Shown piece after piece: positions 6,035 to 15,190 of a DNA stretch of 64,000 bases. Origin of the DNA: Chloroflexota bacterium (GTDB lineage: Bacteria; Chloroflexota; Dormibacteria; Dormibacterales; Dormibacteraceae); assembly GCA_005881825.1 (NCBI GenBank), contig VBEO01000075.1:1-64000 (forward strand), in the 5' to 3' direction. Both the position numbers and the translations under genes were made by a program. Below the pieces are notes generated by a model, which was not told where the DNA came from, made no database searches, and saw nothing but the letters and a program-made list of their open reading frames with translations. Position 1 is the stretch's first letter. Each line of letters begins with the position of its first letter.

Positions 6035-7162
6035 CTGAGCGCCGAAAAGCGTTCCGCCGCCGGCGCTCGGCTTTGGCTCTCGGCTCTGCTCGCTTTCCTG
6101 GTGACGCGCGCGGGCTACGTGGCGATCACTTTGGCCGTCGGACTCGCCCACGGCCGCCACGATCCTGCGGCCCTGCTCGACAGCTGGCGGCAGTGGGACA
6201 CCGGGTGGTACCTGGACATCTCGCGCCGCGGCTATTTCGATCCCGCGACCGCGGTCTTCTTTCCGCTTTACCCGGCGGCCATAGCCGGCATCGCGGCGGT
6301 CCTGGGCGAGCCTTCTCGGCTGGCCGCAGCCTTGGTACTGGCCAATGGGGGCGCACTGGCGGCGATCGTGGGGATGGTGGCCCTGGGTGTCCAGGAAGTT
6401 GGAGAGGCGGCGGGCCGGCTCAGCGTGCTCCTGTTCCTGTCCTACCCCTTCGCCTTCTACCTGGCCGCCGCTTACACCGAGGGGCCTTTCATAGCGTTCG
6501 CAGTTTGGTCAGTGGTCATGGCCCGGCGCGGCCGTTGGGGACCGGCCGCCGGCCTGGCCTTCCTGGCCGGGCTGACGCGGGTCACGGCCATCATCCTGAT
6601 CCTGCCCCTGGTCTGGGAGCTCGGCCGCCAGCGCGGTTGGTGGAACCCCTGGCTGGCGCCACTCGCCGGAGCGGTACCGGCGGCCGTGCTTCTCTTCATG
6701 GCATACCTCTGGCGGCGCTTCGGCGATCCCCTGCTGTTCTTGAAGGAGCAGTCCCTGGCGTGGCACCGCCACCCGGTTGACATCTTCACGGTGCTGCCGC
6801 GGGCGGCGGCGCGCATCCTCCGGCTGCCGCTCCTCGACGAGACGCGCTGGGTGCAGACGGCGGAGGTCACAGCCGTCCTGCTCTTCGCCGCGCTGACCGT
6901 GATCGCCGTGAGGCGGCAGCCGCTCAGCTTCACCCTTTTCATGGTGGGCCTGCTTTATCTGAGCGTCGCCTCGCCGATCACGACGGGACCGTACTACCTG
7001 CAGAGCGCCGGCCGCTTCCTGCTTGCGGCCGTCCCCGGCTTCCTCTACGCCGCGCGTTTGCTGGCCGGCCGGCGGTACCTGGAGCTGCCGGTGCTGGCGG
7101 CCGGCTCAGGACTGCAGGCTTTTTTCGTTGGGCTCTTCCTGAACGGGCACGTGATCGAGTAG
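6035..7162 (+). CDS. PIG-V-like mannosyltransferase family membrane protein
   Basis: A polytopic membrane protein of about 375 residues. WRQWDTGWYLDISRRGYF followed by AVFFPLYP is the hallmark of the PIG-V/GT-C mannosyltransferase group, which uses lipid-linked sugar donors at the membrane. At least eight hydrophobic segments follow. The first canonical start codon is GTG at 6101, but the open frame continues upstream and supplies the missing half of the first membrane helix (LWLSALLAF), back to a CTG at 6035, which I take as the probable start. Its last 57 bases overlap the 3' end of aceK on the other strand. Confidence 0.78.
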   Translation: MSAEKRSAAGARLWLSALLAFLVTRAGYVAITLAVGLAHGRHDPAALLDSWRQWDTGWYLDISRRGYFDPATAVFFPLYPAAIAGIAAVLGEPSRLAAALVLANGGALAAIVGMVALGVQEVGEAAGRLSVLLFLSYPFAFYLAAAYTEGPFIAFAVWSVVMARRGRWGPAAGLAFLAGLTRVTAIILILPLVWELGRQRGWWNPWLAPLAGAVPAAVLLFMAYLWRRFGDPLLFLKEQSLAWHRHPVDIFTVLPRAAARILRLPLLDETRWVQTAEVTAVLLFAALTVIAVRRQPLSFTLFMVGLLYLSVASPITTGPYYLQSAGRFLLAAVPGFLYAARLLAGRRYLELPVLAAGSGLQAFFVGLFLNGHVIE

Positions 7163-8887
7163 GCGGGTGGCCTGCGGGTAGGGAAAGATGTCGATGATCT
7201 CGCCCTGCTGGATCTGGGACTGCATCTGGTGCCAGAAGTCGACCGTGTAGAGGTCGCCGTGCACCTCGTCCATCACCTTCTGGTGCTCCGGCGGCAGGCC
7301 CATGAAGCGCGGGAACTCCTCCGGGAACACGTCACGCGGACCGACGCCGAACCACGCCTCTGAATCGAAGTCGTCGTCGTCGTGCTGCGCCGCGGGCATG
7401 TCGCGAAACGTGAAATCGGTGAGCAGGCCCAGCTCGTCGTAGTCGTAGCAGACGACGCGGCCGTTGCGGGTCACGCCGAAGTTCTTGGGCAGCAGCTCGC
7501 CGGGAAAGATGCCGTTGGCCGCAAGATCCTTCACGGCCTGCCCGAAGTCGACGACCGCGGCGCGCGCGGCTTCGGGTTCGGCGAAACCGAGATAGACATC
7601 GAGCGGCGCGACGCGCCGCTCCACGTACGCGTGATGCACCACGATCTCGGCGTCGCCAACGCTGACGGTCTTGTCGGCGTCGTGCGCGAACTCCATGATC
7701 AAGTCTTCGCCGAAGCGCGCGCGCTCGAACTTCAAGTGCTCGAATTCCTGCGCCTCCACCAGGCGGCCGGCGCGGTCATGCCGGAAGACGAGCTGATAGT
7801 TGTTGCGCACCGCCAGCGGCGTCACCGGCTTGATCGCGGGGATATGGTCGCGGATCAGCTTGAAGACCACGTCGTATCCGGTCATCGTGAACACCACCAT
7901 CACCATGCCGGGCACCCCGGGCGCCACCTCGAAGCGGCTGTCGCTTTCGCGCAGGTGCCGCAGCAGGTCGCGGTAGAGCTCGGTCTTACCGTGCTTGTGG
8001 TAGCCGAGCGCGATGTACAGCTCGGCCACGGGCTTGCGTGGCAGGAGCCGCTTCAAGTAGCGCACGACCTGGTAAGGCGGATCCAGGTCGACGTGGAAAT
8101 GCGAGCGCGTGAAGCTGAAGAGAACGCTCACGTGGTCGACGTCGGTCAGCACGGCGTCGATCCGCAGTCCGCGCTCGGTGTTGAGCACGGCCAGCACCAG
8201 AGGTCGATGGCCCGCCTCGGCGATCAGTCTTCCAACCAGGTAGGCGCCCTTGCGGCGGAAGAACGGCGCGGCCATCATCTCGGCGCCCCGCAGAGTGCCC
8301 TCTGCGGCGCCCAGCTCTGCCAGCTGCCGCCGCAGAGAGGCGGTGGCCAGGCGGACGTCCCGCGCCCGGTCTTCCCAGGCGGCCGCGAACCAGTTGTCGC
8401 CGAGGATCGCGCCGATCACCGCCTCCAGGTCCTGGCCCGCGTACTGGCGGCACAACGATTCCGGCGGCTCCGGCGTGGGCGGGTCGAAATCGGAGTCGAT
8501 GAACTCGATGTCCGGCTCCACGCCCGCGGTGGCGAAGATGCGGCGGGTCACCGAGTTGAGGAAGGTCTCCGCGATCTCCCAATCCGGACGGCCCGCGATC
8601 AGGCTGGAGTAGCTGCCCTTCACCGCCGCCCAGATCTCCGTCTCACGCAGATGGGTCCAAAGCAGGCGCCGCACCTCGTTCTCGACCTCGTGCACGACCT
8701 CGCCGTAGAGGTCCAGCCGGTCGGTCGCATCATTGAGCGTGCCCTTCCAGTCGCGGCGGTCGAAGCGGCCTCCCGCGCGGCGCGTGACCTCCGCGAAACG
8801 CTTGCGGTAACGCTCGAAGCCGTCCAGGATGGCGGCCGCGGCCGGGCCGGCGTCCTCACTCGGGCGCCGGGCCGCGGGGAGCGACAT
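7106..8887 (-). CDS. aceK: Isocitrate dehydrogenase kinase/phosphatase
   Basis: 593 residues matching AceK, the bifunctional enzyme that phosphorylates and dephosphorylates isocitrate dehydrogenase to switch carbon between the TCA cycle and the glyoxylate shunt. Seen are the N-terminal regulatory half, the ATP-binding segment ALGYHKHGKTELYRDL, the lobe NNYQLVFRHDRAGRLVEAQEFEHL, and LLPKNFGVTRNGRVVCYDYDEL near the catalytic Asp. ATG at 8887 has a GGGAAG site upstream. No isocitrate lyase or malate synthase is nearby. It is divergent from the KamA gene across 91 bases. AceK is mainly proteobacterial, so transfer is likely. Confidence 0.93.
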   Translation of the reverse strand: MSLPAARRPSEDAGPAAAAILDGFERYRKRFAEVTRRAGGRFDRRDWKGTLNDATDRLDLYGEVVHEVENEVRRLLWTHLRETEIWAAVKGSYSSLIAGRPDWEIAETFLNSVTRRIFATAGVEPDIEFIDSDFDPPTPEPPESLCRQYAGQDLEAVIGAILGDNWFAAAWEDRARDVRLATASLRRQLAELGAAEGTLRGAEMMAAPFFRRKGAYLVGRLIAEAGHRPLVLAVLNTERGLRIDAVLTDVDHVSVLFSFTRSHFHVDLDPPYQVVRYLKRLLPRKPVAELYIALGYHKHGKTELYRDLLRHLRESDSRFEVAPGVPGMVMVVFTMTGYDVVFKLIRDHIPAIKPVTPLAVRNNYQLVFRHDRAGRLVEAQEFEHLKFERARFGEDLIMEFAHDADKTVSVGDAEIVVHHAYVERRVAPLDVYLGFAEPEAARAAVVDFGQAVKDLAANGIFPGELLPKNFGVTRNGRVVCYDYDELGLLTDFTFRDMPAAQHDDDDFDSEAWFGVGPRDVFPEEFPRFMGLPPEHQKVMDEVHGDLYTVDFWHQMQSQIQQGEIIDIFPYPQATRLLDHVPVQEEPNEKSLQS

Positions 8888-8909
8888 CCGGTGATCTTCC
8901 CTTATCCGC

Positions 8910-8938
8910 TTGACGACAGGGTCCAGTTCGTCACAATG
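8910..8938 (+). promoter_or_regulatory. Probable promoter of the KamA-ATP-grasp operon
   Basis: TTGACG at 8910-8915 and ACAATG at 8933-8938 are separated by 17 bases in the 91-base gap between the divergent aceK and kamA-like genes. The -35 is good and the -10 is weak. A CCCGGG-rich inverted repeat lies just downstream and could be an operator. Confidence 0.45.
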
Positions 8939-8978
8939 TCCCGGGTCCCCCCGGGCCAAATACGAACCGGAGGTCAGG

Positions 8979-10277
8979 ATGGCAGGCGGAGCGGACAGCG
9001 TTCGGGAAATCGAAAGCGAGGAGCCTCCAGGCCCACAACCGTTCCGTTACCCGCCAGCCCAACCCTTCACCGAGCCCGACTGGCGCCGGCTGCCCGGATT
9101 TCGCAACGTCACTTCCGCCGAGTGGGAGAGCGCGCGCTGGCAGCGCCTGCACAGCATCCGGGACGTACGCGGCCTGCGCGAAGTTTTCGGCACGCGCTTG
9201 AGCGACGACCTGGCCGAGGACATCGCTCAGGACGCGCTGCAGCGCGCGACCATGACCATGCTGGTCCCGCCGCAGATGCTCAACACCATGGACGAGCGCG
9301 ACCTGCGCGCCGACCCGGTGCGCCGCTACATGCTGCCCGCGGTGTCCGAGCGCTGCGCTGAGTTTCCCAGCCATCCCTACGCCATGCGCGACAGCCTGCA
9401 CGAAGCGGAGATGTGGGCGGTCGAAGGTTTGACGCACCGTTATCCGACGAAGGTGCTGGCCGAGGTGGTCGCCACCTGTCCGCAGTACTGCGGTCACTGC
9501 ACACGCATGGACCTCGTCGGGCCCAGCACGGCGCAGGTTAACAAGTACGCGTTCCGCACGCGCTGGGCGGAGCGTGAGCTGGCGATTCTCGATTACCTGC
9601 GCGACACACCGAGCGTGCGCGACGTCGTGGTGTCCGGCGGCGACATCGCCAACGTGCCCATCGCGCGCCTGGAAGCGTTCGTGATGGCGCTGATGGACAT
9701 CGAGCACATCCGCGACATCCGGCTGGCGTCGAAGAGCCTGGTGGCGCTTCCGCAGCATTTCCTGCAGCAGGACGTGCTGGAGGCGCTGGCGCGGACCGCG
9801 TACGTGCTCGAATTCGACTTTCGCGACGTACGCAACCAGGCCGTGCTGCTGCGCGGCGTCAACGCCACCCCGGAAGACCTGCTGGCGCTGTGCTTCCGGC
9901 TGCTCGACGGCGCGCGCATCACGCCTTACTACGCGTACATGTGCGACATGGTCCCCAACACCGAGCACTGGCGCACTCCGTTGTGGGAAGCGCAGCAGCT
10001 GCAGAGCGGGATCATGGGCTACCTGCCCGGCTACGCGACGCCGCGCGTGGTCTGCGACGTGCCCATGTTGGGCAAGGTCTGGGTGCACCAGGTCAGCGAC
10101 TACGACCGCGAGCTGGGCATCAGCCAGTGGACGAAGAACTACCTGACCCCGCTCGACGCCCGCTCCTCTGACGCTCTCGACCGCCGCTTCCGTTACTACG
10201 ACCCCATACACACGCTGCCGGAGTCCGGGCAGGCGTGGTGGCGGCGTGCCGACCGGCGTGAACTAGTTTCGCGCTGA
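8979..10277 (+). CDS. KamA-family radical SAM aminomutase
   Basis: 432 residues related to lysine 2,3-aminomutase. The radical SAM cluster motif CPQYCGHCTRMDLVG lies near residue 170 and SGGDIA, the usual following glycine motif, about 55 residues later. The family uses a [4Fe-4S] cluster, SAM and PLP to move an amino group from the alpha to the beta carbon. The DLVG variant after the cysteines and the long N-terminus differ from classical KamA and from EpmB, so the substrate is open. ATG at 8979 has a GGAGG site. Two ATP-grasp genes and an acetyltransferase follow with 2-base spacing or overlaps, so it heads an operon. Confidence 0.88.
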   Translation: MAGGADSVREIESEEPPGPQPFRYPPAQPFTEPDWRRLPGFRNVTSAEWESARWQRLHSIRDVRGLREVFGTRLSDDLAEDIAQDALQRATMTMLVPPQMLNTMDERDLRADPVRRYMLPAVSERCAEFPSHPYAMRDSLHEAEMWAVEGLTHRYPTKVLAEVVATCPQYCGHCTRMDLVGPSTAQVNKYAFRTRWAERELAILDYLRDTPSVRDVVVSGGDIANVPIARLEAFVMALMDIEHIRDIRLASKSLVALPQHFLQQDVLEALARTAYVLEFDFRDVRNQAVLLRGVNATPEDLLALCFRLLDGARITPYYAYMCDMVPNTEHWRTPLWEAQQLQSGIMGYLPGYATPRVVCDVPMLGKVWVHQVSDYDRELGISQWTKNYLTPLDARSSDALDRRFRYYDPIHTLPESGQAWWRRADRRELVSR

Positions 10278-10279
10278 CC

Positions 10280-11260
10280 TTGGACATCGGGATCGCCTAC
10301 GACCTGGTCAGCGATTTCGACCGCCAGCCGGGCGAACCCGCCGACAGCCTTGCCGAGTACGACTCCGAGGAGACCGTCGCCGCCCTCGAGGCCGCCCTGC
10401 GCGGCGCCGGGCATCGGGCGCGGCGGCTGGGCGGCGGCCGCCACTTCCTGGATGCGATGCTGGCCGGCCCGCCCGATCTGGTCTTCAACCTGGCCGAGGG
10501 GCGCGGCGGCCGCGCCCGCGAGGCCCAGGTGCCGGCGGTTTGCGAGATGCTGGGCGTCCCCTGCACACACAGCGACGCGCTGACCATGGCGGTGACGCTC
10601 GACAAGGCCGCCGCCAAGCGGCTGGTGCGCAGCGCCGGCGTACCCACGCCGGATTTCGAAGTGCTGGACGCACCCGGTCCGGTCGGGCTCGAGTTTCCGG
10701 TGGTGGCCAAGCCGGTGCACGAGGGGTCGAGCATGGGCATCGGCGCCCGCTCCCTGGTCCGGCGTCCGGCCGACCTGCCGGAGGTGGTCACTGAGCTGCG
10801 GGAGCGTTACCGGCAGCCGGTCCTGGTCGAGGAGTTCTGCCCCGGCGCCGAGCTGACGGTGGGCATCTTCGGCACCGGTGAGTGCGCCCGGCCGCTGGCA
10901 GTGATGGAGGTGGCGCCCCAGCGCCGGCCGCTGGAGGCATTTCTGTACTCGGGCCAGGTCAAGCACGACTGGGAAGTCGAGGTCACGTACCACGTGCCGC
11001 CACGAGCCGCACCGGCGATCGCCGCCCGGGCCGAGGAGGTGGCGCTGGCCGCCTACCGCGCCCTGGGCTGCCAGGACGTGGCCCGGATCGACCTCCGCGT
11101 CGACCGCCGGGGGGAGCCCGCCTTTCTGGAGGCCAATCCGCTGCCGGGCCTGCACCCGGTGGTGTCCGACCTGGCCATGATGGCGCGACCCCTGGGCATC
11201 GGCTACGACGATCTGGTCCTGCGCATCCTGGCCTGCGCCCGGGAGCGGCTCGATGTCTGA
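10280..11260 (+). CDS. ATP-grasp ligase, D-Ala-D-Ala ligase-like (first of pair)
   Basis: 326 residues with an ATP-grasp fold. Seen are PDLVFNLAEG, a lysine in TLDKAAAKRLV, FPVVAKPVHEGSSMGIG (ATP-binding lysine and small loop), VLVEEFCPGAELTVGI and FLEANPLPGLHP with the Mg-binding ExN. These are features of the D-alanine-D-alanine ligase group, but the pairing with a second paralogue and a KamA enzyme suggests a special amide- or peptide-bond-forming role rather than cell-wall synthesis. TTG at 10280 is 2 bases after the KamA stop. Its end overlaps the next start by 8 bases. Confidence 0.85.
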   Translation: MDIGIAYDLVSDFDRQPGEPADSLAEYDSEETVAALEAALRGAGHRARRLGGGRHFLDAMLAGPPDLVFNLAEGRGGRAREAQVPAVCEMLGVPCTHSDALTMAVTLDKAAAKRLVRSAGVPTPDFEVLDAPGPVGLEFPVVAKPVHEGSSMGIGARSLVRRPADLPEVVTELRERYRQPVLVEEFCPGAELTVGIFGTGECARPLAVMEVAPQRRPLEAFLYSGQVKHDWEVEVTYHVPPRAAPAIAARAEEVALAAYRALGCQDVARIDLRVDRRGEPAFLEANPLPGLHPVVSDLAMMARPLGIGYDDLVLRILACARERLDV

Positions 11261-12242
11261 ATCAGCCCCGCTGGTCGGCATCCTCTACAACGACGACCAG
11301 ACCCTGGTCGCGGGGGAGGAGCGCGACCGCCTGGCCGTGGAAGGCGTCGACGCGGTAGCTGCCACCGTCGCCGATGCCGTACGCGCGGCCGGCTGGTCCG
11401 AATGGCGGCTGGCGGTCGGCCGCGACCTGCAGCCGGTCATCGACCGACTGCGCGAGCAGCGCCCGGACGTCGTCTTCAACCTGGTCGAATCGATCGGCGG
11501 CCAGCCGCGCCTGGAGGCCGCCATGGCCTGGGTGCTGGAGTGGCTGGAGCTGCCCTATACCGGCAGCCCCCTGGAGGCCATGAGCGCCGGCCTCGACAAG
11601 GCGCATGCCAAGGCCCTGCTCCAGGCGGCGGGGGTGCCGGTGCCCGGCGTCGCCTACCCCGCCATCGTCAAGCCGCGCTGCCAGGACGCCAGCCACGGCA
11701 TCAGCCCTGACAGCGTGGTCCCGGACGCGAACGCGGCGGCGGTGCGCATCGCGTACGTGCGCGCCCGCTACCTCCAGGACGCGGTGGTCGAGGAGTTCAT
11801 CGAGGGCCGCGAGTTCAACCTCTCGCTCCTCGGGACAACTGACAAACCGCTGCTGCTGCCGCCGTCGGAGATCGACTTCAGTGAGTTCGCGCCCGGCCGC
11901 CCGCGGGTGGTCGGTTTCGAGGCGAAGTGGAGCGAGGACAGCCCCGAGTACCGCGGCACCGCCCCCTTCTTCCCCGACCTGCCGCCCGAGCTGCTGGAGA
12001 CGCTGCGAGGAGTGGCCACGGCCGCCTACTCGGCGATCGGCCTGCGCGACTACGGCCGGGTCGACCTGCGCCTGCACGCGCAGCGTGGGCCGTTTGTGGT
12101 CGACGTCAACCCCAACCCCGACCTCAGCACCGATGCCGGTGTGGCCCGGGCGGCGGCCCAAGCTGGCCGGTCCTACGCCGAGCTGGTCCAGCAGATCGTG
12201 CGTATGGCGCTGGCCCGGGCCGGCGTCGCGAGCGCGGCGTGA
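11253..12242 (+). CDS. ATP-grasp ligase, D-Ala-D-Ala ligase-like (second of pair)
   Basis: 329 residues, paralogous to the preceding gene. It shows PDVVFNLVESIGGQPRLEAA, SAGLDKAHAKALL, PAIVKPRCQDASHGI, VVEEFIEGREFNLSLLG and VDVNPNPDLS. The loop after the ATP-binding lysine differs from the first copy (RCQDASHGI rather than VHEGSSMGI), so the two probably act on different substrates or in sequence. ATG at 11253 overlaps the end of the first ATP-grasp gene by 8 bases; its stop overlaps the acetyltransferase start as GTGA. Its product is probably cytosolic. Confidence 0.84.
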   Translation: MSESAPLVGILYNDDQTLVAGEERDRLAVEGVDAVAATVADAVRAAGWSEWRLAVGRDLQPVIDRLREQRPDVVFNLVESIGGQPRLEAAMAWVLEWLELPYTGSPLEAMSAGLDKAHAKALLQAAGVPVPGVAYPAIVKPRCQDASHGISPDSVVPDANAAAVRIAYVRARYLQDAVVEEFIEGREFNLSLLGTTDKPLLLPPSEIDFSEFAPGRPRVVGFEAKWSEDSPEYRGTAPFFPDLPPELLETLRGVATAAYSAIGLRDYGRVDLRLHAQRGPFVVDVNPNPDLSTDAGVARAAAQAGRSYAELVQQIVRMALARAGVASAA

Positions 12243-13378
12243 GCCGCCTCGACGCCTGGCTGGAGGGCGAGTGGCGGGCCTGGGGCGTGCGACTGTCCGA
12301 GTCCGAGCACAAGACCTGGCGAGCGGTGCTGGAGCGGGGCAGCCTCCTCGCCACCGAGGAGGCGGGCCGGATGGTGGCCGGCCTGGCGCACGTCCCGGCG
12401 AGCCTGACCGTGCCCGGATCCGAGGTGCCTACTTCGATCCTGGCCTCGGCCTGGGTGGAGCCCACGCGACGGGGCCGGGGCCTGCTGCGGGGCCTGGTGC
12501 GGGAGTACCTGGACGATCTCCACGCGGACGGCGTGGCGGTGGCCGTTCTGCAACCGGCCGAGTCCGGCATCTATCGAGCGTTCGGCTATGGCATGGGCGT
12601 TGAGGTGGTCACGGCCCGGCTGCCGGCGCGCGCCGGTGGCTTCAGCGGTGAAGGTGCGCTGGAGCTGGTTCGCTGGCCCGAGGGGCGGGCGGCGATGGCC
12701 GCGATCTACGAGCGGGCTCGCAGCGCATTCCCCGGGATGCTGGCGCGCGACGCCGCCTGGTGGGACTACTCGTACCATCGAGCGGCCGAGCTGCCGATCT
12801 TCATCGCCATTCACAAGGACGGCTTCGCCGCCTACAGCGTGGAGCAGCGATGGCGGGACGGCTCGCCGGAGGACCTGGTCACCGTGCACGAGCTGATCGC
12901 AGGCACTCCCGAGGCCTACGCGGCCCTCTGGCGGCACTGCCTCGACCTGGCGCTGGCCGGGCGGGTGATCGCCTACTGCCGGCCACTCGAGGAACCGCTT
13001 CTGCATCTACTGGCGGATCCCCGGCGGCTGCGCCGGCGACCCGTGGACGGCCTGCACGTGCGCTTGGTGGACGTGGGCGCCGCGCTCGCCGCGCGGCGCT
13101 ACGGGGCCGGCGACGGCGTGGTGCTGGAGGTTGAGGACGAGTTCTGCGGCTGGAACCGCGGCCGCTTTCGAGTCGAAGCCGGCGGCTCCGCACCGACTCG
13201 GGGGCCCGCCGACCTCGCGCTCGACGCCGGCGCCCTGGGCGCCGCCTACCTGGGCGGCATCAGCCTGGATTCACTCTGGCGCGCCGGGCGGGTACGGGAA
13301 TGCCGTCCGGGCGGCGTTAAGCGAGCCGACATGCTGTTCGCCTGGTCGCCACGCCCGTGGCTTTCCTGGAGTTACTGA
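12239..13378 (+). CDS. Eis-family GNAT N-acetyltransferase
   Basis: 379 residues with the three-part layout of Eis-type acetyltransferases: an N-terminal GNAT fold with the acetyl-CoA loop (VEPTRRGRGLLRGL) and ESGIYRAFGYG, a second degenerate GNAT region, and a C-terminal sterol-carrier-like domain (LGAAYLGGISLDSL) ending in an aromatic C-terminus. Eis enzymes acetylate amines such as aminoglycosides or lysine side chains. Being the last large gene of the KamA-ATP-grasp operon, it may acetylate the operon's amine product; this is inference. GTG at 12239 overlaps the previous TGA. Confidence 0.85.
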   Translation: MSRLDAWLEGEWRAWGVRLSESEHKTWRAVLERGSLLATEEAGRMVAGLAHVPASLTVPGSEVPTSILASAWVEPTRRGRGLLRGLVREYLDDLHADGVAVAVLQPAESGIYRAFGYGMGVEVVTARLPARAGGFSGEGALELVRWPEGRAAMAAIYERARSAFPGMLARDAAWWDYSYHRAAELPIFIAIHKDGFAAYSVEQRWRDGSPEDLVTVHELIAGTPEAYAALWRHCLDLALAGRVIAYCRPLEEPLLHLLADPRRLRRRPVDGLHVRLVDVGAALAARRYGAGDGVVLEVEDEFCGWNRGRFRVEAGGSAPTRGPADLALDAGALGAAYLGGISLDSLWRAGRVRECRPGGVKRADMLFAWSPRPWLSWSY

Positions 13379-13379
13379 G

Positions 13380-13520
13380 TTGGGCTTCATCCGCGGCCTG
13401 GCCGTGATCGCGCTGCTCTTGGGCGTGGTCTGGGCGGCCTGGTGGATCGCCTGGTACGTCGGCGGCCAGACCGCCGGGACCACCCTGCCGCCGCCGCCCG
13501 GCATCTCGAGCGGGAGCTAG
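13380..13520 (+). CDS. Small single-pass membrane peptide (possible)
   Basis: A 46-residue frame starting with TTG one base after the acetyltransferase stop. It encodes one strong hydrophobic segment (LAVIALLLGVVWAAWWIAW) and a short proline-rich tail. The position immediately behind the operon and the good membrane segment favour a real small protein, but no family is recognised and the start is weak. It ends three bases before the opposite-strand ChrB-domain gene. Confidence 0.45.
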   Translation: MGFIRGLAVIALLLGVVWAAWWIAWYVGGQTAGTTLPPPPGISSGS

Positions 13521-13523
13521 GCC

Positions 13524-13958
13524 TCAGGCGTCGACCCGGCGCCGACACCACTCGTAGAGGGCGTCGTAGAGCGGCGCCTCGGCCTCCAGCTTCTCGAGGT
13601 CACGAGCGCCGTAGAGAGCCGAGAAACCGTGCGCGATGGCCATCAGGCCGCGGCCCTCGGGGACGGTGTCGAGGTCGGCCGCGATGTCGGCCGCGTGCAC
13701 GATCAGGCCGAGGGTCTGCAGGGCCGGGTCGGTGAGGTTGTACTCGCGCAGGATCGACTCGAAGCTGCAGCGTCCATCGACGTGGCCCAGCTTGGCGCCC
13801 GGCACATCAAACGGGATGGCGCTCTCGCGCTCGGCCACGGCCGCGACCTGCTCGGCGGGGACGTACAGGAATTCGGCCTCGGGATCGACGAAACGGCGGA
13901 TCAGCCAGGGGCATGCGATTCGATCGACCTTGGCATCGGCCCGCGTGACCCACTTCAC
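13524..13958 (-). CDS. ChrB C-terminal domain chromate-resistance protein
   Basis: 144 residues matching the Chrome_Resist domain (C-terminal domain of ChrB). It starts KWVTRADAKVDRIACPWLI, has FDVPGAKLGHVDGRCSFE, and ends with an ALYEWCRRR helix. The N-terminal ChrB domain is absent. GTG at 13958 overlaps the TGA of the MFS gene by 4 bases, so it is the last gene of an ArsR-MFS-ChrB operon. In related loci the domain occurs with chromate transporters; here the transporter is an MFS protein instead of ChrA. Confidence 0.87.
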   Translation of the reverse strand: MKWVTRADAKVDRIACPWLIRRFVDPEAEFLYVPAEQVAAVAERESAIPFDVPGAKLGHVDGRCSFESILREYNLTDPALQTLGLIVHAADIAADLDTVPEGRGLMAIAHGFSALYGARDLEKLEAEAPLYDALYEWCRRRVDA

Positions 13959-15190
13959 GACCCGCCACCCCCAGCGTGTGCCAGCTCGACCTTGCGCTCG
14001 ACCGGCGCCGCCTCGCGTTCCCGCAGCCGGGCCAGGAACGGCTCGCTGGGCAGGAGCAGAGCGACAGGAATGGTGATCAGCACCACCAGCACCTGGCTGA
14101 AGAGCGCGGCCTGGATGCCGAAGCGGTCGGCGATGGCGCCGGTCACCGGCACCCCGATGGCGCCGGTCACGAAGCCCAGGCCCATGATCAGGCCGCTGGC
14201 CAGGCCCGCCCGGGCCGACAGCAGCTCCTGGGCCAAGACCAGCATCAGCGGCGCCGTCGAGGCCGCCAGGCTGCCCACCAGAACCGCCCACAGGAAGCCC
14301 TGCACTCCGGGGAAGGCCGCGAACAGCCACACCGCGGGGACGCTCATCACCATCGTGCCCACGATCACCGCGCGCCGGCCGTAGCGGTCGGCCAGCGCCC
14401 CGGTGCCCACGGCGCCCATGGCGCTGGCCAGGATGATGGTGGTGGCCAGCGGCCCGTAGAACCAGGGCTGGTAGCCGAGGTGCTGGTACCAGGTCGGCGT
14501 GAAGGCCTGGAGGGCGACCGTGGTCCAGCTGCGCGATGCCATCACGCCCACGGTCGCCGCCAGCGGGATCAGGGGCAGGGCGCCGGCGGCTGCCACCCGC
14601 CGGCGGGGGCCTCGCGGCACCGCGTAGGCCCGGCTGCGCATCGCCAGCACCAGGTAGGCGGCGATCAGCACGCCCGGCAGCAGCATCAAAGCGGTCCCCT
14701 TGATTCCGGCCAGTCCGAACACCGCTACGCCGATCAGAGGCCCGGCGGCCAGACCGAGCGTGCCGGCGGTGACGTACAGGGACATCGCCATGTTCAGCCC
14801 CCGCGGCGGCAGCAGGGAGCGCACGGTCACCGCCCCCAATGGGTGGAAGGTGCCCGACCCGATGCCGGAGAGCAGCGCGATGCCGACCAGGATCGGGAAG
14901 CTGGGCGCGAAGCCGGCGGCCGCGAAGCTGATTGCCGTCCAGGCCAGGGCCAGGCCGGTGAAGCGGGTGCCCCAGCGGTCGGCCACCAACCCGAACACGG
15001 GCTGGGACACGGCGCCCATGCCCGTGTAGGCGAGGGTGACCAGCCCCACCGTGCGCAGGTTGAGGTCGAAGCGATGGATGAGGAGCGGAAACATGACCGG
15101 CAGCAGGCCGACGTAGCTGTCGACCATGAAGTGGCCGAGCGCCAGCGTCAGCAGCCGGCCGTTGCGGAAAAACTCCTTCAGGACGTCCAA
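13955..15190 (-). CDS. MFS transporter (FSR-like)
   Basis: 411 residues with about twelve hydrophobic segments and the MFS signature between helices 2 and 3 (GLVADRWGTRFTG) and its repeat in the second half (GALADRYGRRAVIVG). GHFMVDSYVGLLPVMFPLL near the start resembles fosmidomycin-resistance-type exporters. The start is probably TTG at 15190, 13 bases inside the ArsR gene; no ATG lies closer to the natural N-terminus. Coupled to a ChrB-domain gene and an ArsR regulator, it may export chromate or another toxic oxyanion; the substrate is inferred. Confidence 0.85.
   Translation of the reverse strand: MDVLKEFFRNGRLLTLALGHFMVDSYVGLLPVMFPLLIHRFDLNLRTVGLVTLAYTGMGAVSQPVFGLVADRWGTRFTGLALAWTAISFAAAGFAPSFPILVGIALLSGIGSGTFHPLGAVTVRSLLPPRGLNMAMSLYVTAGTLGLAAGPLIGVAVFGLAGIKGTALMLLPGVLIAAYLVLAMRSRAYAVPRGPRRRVAAAGALPLIPLAATVGVMASRSWTTVALQAFTPTWYQHLGYQPWFYGPLATTIILASAMGAVGTGALADRYGRRAVIVGTMVMSVPAVWLFAAFPGVQGFLWAVLVGSLAASTAPLMLVLAQELLSARAGLASGLIMGLGFVTGAIGVPVTGAIADRFGIQAALFSQVLVVLITIPVALLLPSEPFLARLREREAAPVERKVELAHAGGGGS

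Follow-up and report, generated by a model that had tools for sequence, protein, structure and literature searches.

This analysis concerns a group of four genes at positions 8979-13378 of a stretch of contig VBEO01000075.1 from a Chloroflexota bacterium (assembly GCA_005881825.1). The whole stretch, referred to below as the window, comprises 64,000 nt. The cassette consists of four open reading frames (ORFs) on the + strand, kam, lig1, lig2, and an acetyltransferase (GNAT) gene, in that order. The spacing is tight, with a 2-bp gap between kam and lig1, an 8-bp overlap between lig1 and lig2, and a 4-bp overlap between lig2 and the GNAT gene, as stated in the initial annotation of the locus, which described genes overlapping or 2 bases apart. 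The assignments and their grounds are as follows.

8979-10277, + strand: KamA-type radical S-adenosylmethionine (SAM)/pyridoxal phosphate (PLP) aminomutase of the lysine-degradation clade; ATG start; TIGR03820, PDB 2A5H, tree
10280-11260, + strand: Lig1, Ddl-fold ATP-grasp carboxylate-amine ligase of changed specificity; TTG start; PF07478, AlphaFold2 (AF2) model, orthologues in four phyla
11253-12242, + strand: Lig2, second distinct Ddl-fold ATP-grasp ligase with the motif NPNPDLSTDAG; ATG start; PF07478, AF2 model
12239-13378, + strand: Eis-type N-acetyltransferase, GNAT + GNAT + SCP2; GTG start; PF13527/PF17668/PF13530, NF002367

Recurrence of the four enzymes in other genomes

Loci elsewhere were chosen by ligase similarity alone, not by KamA, and they are mostly best matches rather than a random sample. 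Therefore, the presence of KamA at these loci is an independent outcome. All four enzyme types were found at one locus in 44 other cases (29 in Gemmatimonadota, 10 in Chloroflexota, 4 in Myxococcota, and 1 in Actinomycetota), which bears out the earlier proposal that a KamA, two ligases, and an acetyltransferase form one unit. A KamA gene adjoins 34 of the 40 Gemmatimonadota loci and 12 of the 18 Chloroflexota loci picked by their ligases; the linkage is therefore beyond chance. The flanking genes vary between families of cassette loci.

The four-gene order of the window, which the initial annotation suggested looking for in other genomes, is present in 10 of the 18 Chloroflexota loci and in a Myxococcota genome (G691). 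The pair kam-lig1 occurs in 2 of the 18, and just this pair is kept at the loci of small single-contig genomes that we read as Dehalococcoides-like. The assignment of these 18 loci to the Chloroflexota is our reading, from the presence of such genomes among the phylum mates. At three Chloroflexota loci (L133, L134, and L135), lig1-lig2-GNAT is accompanied by an extra Lig2 paralogue, and KamA is lacking. Among the Gemmatimonadota, lig1 was found in 92 of 298 genomes, and the order lig1-lig2-GNAT-kam was seen in 29 of 40 examined loci. Only 3 of 297 Actinomycetota genomes have lig1, and one examined locus there has all four types.

In the Myxococcota, a lig1 homologue is present in 143 of 193 genomes, mostly as a fused double protein, and all four types were found in 4 of 19 examined loci. 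Head-to-tail Lig1 fusions of roughly 700-900 amino acids, with no nearby KamA, are encoded at L264, L266, L267, L270, L272, L273, L274, L278, and L279. Tandem KamA paralogues, about 30% identical, occur at L021, L023, L027, L031, L037, L039, L043, and other Myxococcaceae loci. The genome of Myxococcus xanthus AM003 carries a lig2-gnatB pair (L300:7344-8853), with the tandem KamA (L039) and a double Lig1 elsewhere, so that a cultured, genetically tractable organism has the parts of the cassette spread over three loci. A lig1 homologue of pNGR234a adjoins a CapA gene and showed no KamA link.

At two Dehalococcoides-like loci (L124 and L132), kam-lig1 is followed, about 134 bp further on, by genes for a Fur/Zur-type regulator and for the substrate-binding protein, ATPase, and permease of a zinc-type ABC transporter. 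Such neighbours directly 3' of kam-lig1 would suit a peptide-like secondary metabolite or a metal chelator, with beta-lysine amides used extracellularly or for metal uptake, and some known antibiotics are built with beta-lysine. However, the zinc genes are confined to these two closely related loci, and an exporter, a receptor, a resistance gene, or a nonribosomal peptide synthetase (NRPS) is not recurrent beside other cassettes; no conserved exporter, NRPS, or peptidase was seen adjoining them. The broad occurrence, as in the Gemmatimonadota, is also more like that of core or stress metabolism. We regard a metabolite or chelator of this kind as unlikely.

Identity and catalytic residues of the enzymes

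The sole PDB relative of the window KamA found by sequence is lysine 2,3-aminomutase 2A5H (E=1.1e-43). Its match to TIGR03820 (E=2.9e-51, 174.5 bits) falls below the cut-off of 525.4, as do those of the other cassette KamAs (441-497 bits), and no Pfam match was obtained for it at E<=0.01. Cassette KamAs score highest against lysine 2,3-aminomutase, not against glutamate or arginine 2,3-aminomutase. Alignment with 2A5H located the following residues.

9477-9506, + strand: [4Fe-4S]/SAM motif C167-x3-C171-x2-C174 and R176 (equivalent to C125, C129, C132, and R134 of 2A5H)
9945-10076, + strand: lysine-side-chain and PLP residues D323 (D293), D360 (D330), and K366 (K337)

The initial annotation called the motif CGHCTRMDLVG non-classical, which overlooked the first Cys; TCPQYCGHC is a classical CX3CX2C motif. 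The equivalents of C125, C129, C132, R134, D293, and D330 are kept in the window KamA and are invariant in 148/148 other aligned KamAs, and CX3CX2C with the Arg134, Asp293, and Asp330 equivalents is kept both in the lysine-degradation clade and in the main cassette clade. In lysine 2,3-aminomutase, Asp293 and Asp330 hold the lysine side chain. The putative PLP lysine K366 is one residue nearer to the Asp330 equivalent than in 2A5H, and this is the same throughout the clade.

The window KamA is of the same clade as the KamA of the 3,5-diaminohexanoate pathway of lysine degradation, which acts with KamDE, Kdd, and Kal. KamAs about 60% identical to it are common in many phyla, mostly with no ligase in the fetched flanks, and lig2 is absent from 44 of 50 genomes with KamAs of this clade. 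Several of them adjoin genes resembling those of the degradation pathway (families judged by eye), and lysine 5,6-aminomutase (PF09043) was confirmed in three of six genomes with such neighbourhoods. The window differs in having ligases instead and a 31-residue deletion in KamA, and the same search found no lysine 5,6-aminomutase in this genome (~92% complete). Lysine fermentation by this pathway was rejected for this genome because of that absence. The initial annotation held that a cassette would be doubtful if the genes were unlinked in relatives or if the KamA belonged to a known subgroup with unrelated partners. The second doubt has some substance, as the clade is known from lysine degradation and is usually ligase-free; the first has not, as many genomes of the four phyla have the ligase pair together with a GNAT and a KamA of another clade.

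Both ligases have the Ddl/ATP-grasp fold. Lig1 and Lig2 match PF07478 (Dala_Dala_lig_C) with E=3e-28 and E=4.6e-20, and their AF2 models (pLDDT 94.9 and 92.4, respectively) have DdlA 8EVX as the closest PDB match. They share the fold and the ATP-binding core of Ddl and Ddl-like ligases, such as MysD, and both retain Lys-Pro at the ATP site, Arg in (A/G)RxD, and Asn at the metal site. However, the D-Ala-binding motifs GGxSxERxxS (Glu15) and AKY (Tyr216) are absent from both, whereas the genome's own Ddl has the GGRSAEREVS motif and the AKY loop. The best NCBIfam Ddl scores of the two ligases (160.9 and 109.5) are below the cut-off of 243. Lig2 carries NPNPDLSTDAG in place of the NTVPGLTELSL of Ddl. 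They are distinct Ddl-fold paralogues with different signatures, consistent with the two differing ATP-grasp ligases first described, and are linked to KamA and GNAT rather than to the cell wall. A role in the cell wall was rejected because a separate, true Ddl (184.7 bits) is encoded elsewhere in the genome.

The fold shared with cell-wall ligases, and the action of the KamA relative EpmB with EpmA on elongation factor P (EF-P), raise the question of macromolecule modification, in which the ligases and KamA would add beta-lysine to a protein or to the cell wall. However, the EpmB profile score of the window KamA is 109.9 against a cut-off of 369.3, the ligases are small-molecule Ddl types in a genome with its own Ddl, and the Dehalococcoides-like genomes keep kam-lig1. 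Known members of that group have no peptidoglycan. We consider such a modification very improbable.

The window acetyltransferase has the Eis architecture (PF13527/PF17668/PF13530) and scores 316.2 bits against NF002367, above the cut-off of 259, but does not reach the cut-offs of the Eis equivalogs NF002368 and NF002364. It stands where other cassettes have a short RimI-like GNAT. The AblA/AblB pathway of methanogens and some bacteria, which yields N-epsilon-acetyl-beta-lysine, likewise combines a lysine 2,3-aminomutase with a GNAT and follows the same logic of acetylated beta-lysine. The KamA and GNAT of the cassette might therefore be read as such a pair making this plain osmolyte, in which case the ligases would act in a different step and only happen to be neighbours. 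In another bacterium, lysine 2,3-aminomutase genes have been linked to Na+ and c-di-AMP riboswitches (PMC9337991), which favours this explanation. Across phyla, however, no part of the unit is as constant as the ligases, and the GNAT keeps its link with Lig2 even at loci without a linked KamA (the lig2-gnatB loci of M. xanthus and Chloroflexota). The GNATs are not AblB: the window GNAT has no match to TIGR03827, and one RimI-like cassette GNAT scores 15.4 bits against a cut-off of 205.1. The distinction from the N-acetyl-beta-lysine route drawn in the initial annotation is thus sustained by the two added Ddl-like ligases and by the type of GNAT, and we think a plain osmolyte pathway quite unlikely.

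The cassette for N-acetylglutaminylglutamine amide (NAGGN), a small operon that combines ATP-grasp and GNAT functions, produces a dipeptide solute in acetylated form. It resembles the present cassette in these respects, but it has no KamA; the amidotransferase and M42 peptidase are missing here, and NAGGN families are not among the matches listed.

Proposed pathway and integrity of the window copy

Direct support comes from the operon packing, the recurrence of the set, the conserved catalytic residues, and the loss of the D-Ala-binding motifs from both ligases; from these, we infer the substrates, step order, product, and role of the cassette. We give an even chance to the proposal that it is a self-contained biosynthetic operon making a small N-acetylated beta-lysine amide or peptide, most likely intracellular. 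KamA would convert L-lysine to beta-lysine (3,6-diaminohexanoate). Lig1 and Lig2 would activate a carboxylate as acyl phosphate and join beta-lysine by amide bonds to one or two partner amino acids, and the GNAT would cap a free amine by acetylation. Lig1 appears to be most tied to KamA, and Lig2 to the acetyltransferase. The occurrence of kam-lig1 alone in Dehalococcoides-like genomes and of lig2-GNAT alone at other loci, including that of M. xanthus, hints at the order of the steps. The N-acetylated, beta-lysine-containing product would most likely be retained in the cell, and a role as a compatible solute or in stress is our first guess.

More tentatively, the cassette may represent an undescribed, widespread pathway that leads from a lysine 2,3-aminomutase to two Ddl-derived ligases and a swappable acetyltransferase, and thus to N-acetylated beta-lysine peptides of a new class, serving as intracellular protectants in at least four phyla of uncultured and cultured bacteria. 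The titles and abstract openings of the literature searched contained no description of the cassette. If the proposal is true, one more small-molecule pathway of wide distribution becomes known, the parts of which are likely annotated as cell-wall ligases and a stray aminomutase, and the cassette offers a direct way to test, in hosts open to genetic work such as M. xanthus, the function of Ddl-like orphan ligases.

Several observations weigh against the proposed pathway. The window KamA lacks 31 residues, in frame, that 80/80 clade relatives carry.

9794-9802, + strand: approximate position at which the 31 residues are missing in frame, from the alignment with 80 clade relatives

The deletion lies between LARTA and YVLEF and removes the strand with HTHxNHA...TPLV (the HTHxNH motif); the barrel, complete with its T-H-x-N-H strand in the relatives, is incomplete here. 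The protein also deviates at 9 of 163 near-invariant columns (median 0 and maximum 6 in relatives), and its score lies far under the AblA cut-off of TIGR03820. At the three Chloroflexota loci that carry the additional ligase, the ligase pair and GNAT occur in the absence of KamA; some versions of the ligase/GNAT module can thus do without beta-lysine. Finally, Rfam scans found no riboswitch in the window at 7000-14500 and no kam-linked riboswitch at 18 cassette loci. A thiamine pyrophosphate riboswitch at L126:11467-11571 (- strand) lies 5' of a gene adjoining kam and is probably a feature of that gene rather than of the cassette.

With 31 residues lost, the window KamA may no longer work; the enzyme could be inactive, or the assembly wrong. 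The operon of this genome could accordingly be decaying or misassembled, with the ligases and the broad Eis-type GNAT using another amine or nothing. In addition to the deletion and the surplus changes at invariant sites, the KamA has a long tree branch (0.64 versus 0.16-0.22 in the nearest rows). No orthologous cassette was found among 110 class members, and no second KamA in the genome: a search of it with KamA returned just that protein, and its six proteins with PF04055 are all unlike KamA. However, the frame is open, the catalytic residues are kept (with the putative PLP lysine shifted by one position), the G+C content at third codon positions (GC3) is like that of neighbouring genes, and both ligases retain the invariant residues of their families. 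Decay or misassembly thus seems possible but rather unlikely; it concerns the window copy only and is compatible with the proposed pathway for cassettes of this kind.

Origin and surroundings of the window cassette

In the trees, the window Lig1 and Lig2 have as sisters their counterparts in Myxococcota G691 (approximate likelihood ratio test, SH-aLRT, 95 and 93; identity 55% and 49%), whose cassette has the identical order. The window KamA groups with two Actinomycetota rows (99/93) inside the lysine-degradation clade, far from nearly all other cassette KamAs. A second cassette with a KamA of this clade, in the Gemmatimonadales (L204/L047), takes a different place in it. These placements indicate two or more exchanges of KamA, one in the window and one in L204/L047, and the Eis-type enzyme of the window points to at least one exchange of the GNAT. 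Repeated exchange of KamA is consistent with the shared activity being the selected trait, and the swaps of KamA and GNAT types around a constant ligase pair could show, as in a natural experiment, which activities cannot be dispensed with.

The cassette is absent from 110/110 genomes of the class, in which lig1 matches reach only the Ddl level, and the window KamA is absent from 60/60 relatives. Acquisition by transfer is likely. The cassette genes have a GC3 of 0.87-0.91, similar to that of the neighbouring genes, and composition shows no trace of recent transfer. The left neighbour of kam is a divergent AceK gene (7106-8959), which reaches its NCBIfam equivalog cut-off; its counterparts in five relatives are 58-66% identical, and the gene is thus native to the family. 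The neighbours of AceK are not conserved in those relatives; therefore, a comparison with an empty site is uninformative. To the right lie genes for a ChrB C-terminal domain protein, a major facilitator superfamily (MFS) transporter, an ArsR-type regulator, a nitronate monooxygenase, and a tyrosine recombinase. Two minor features border the cassette.

8910-8937, + strand: weak sigma-70-like promoter match TTGACG-16-CACAAT at the divergent AceK/kam boundary; consensus match only
13380-13521, + strand: possible fifth ORF, 46-amino-acid single-span membrane protein; TTG start; sequence only

The promoter match, one found against 0.2 expected in shuffles, is a match to the consensus only. The TTG codon of the membrane ORF lies 1 bp past the GNAT stop codon, and the operon may include this ORF as its fifth gene.

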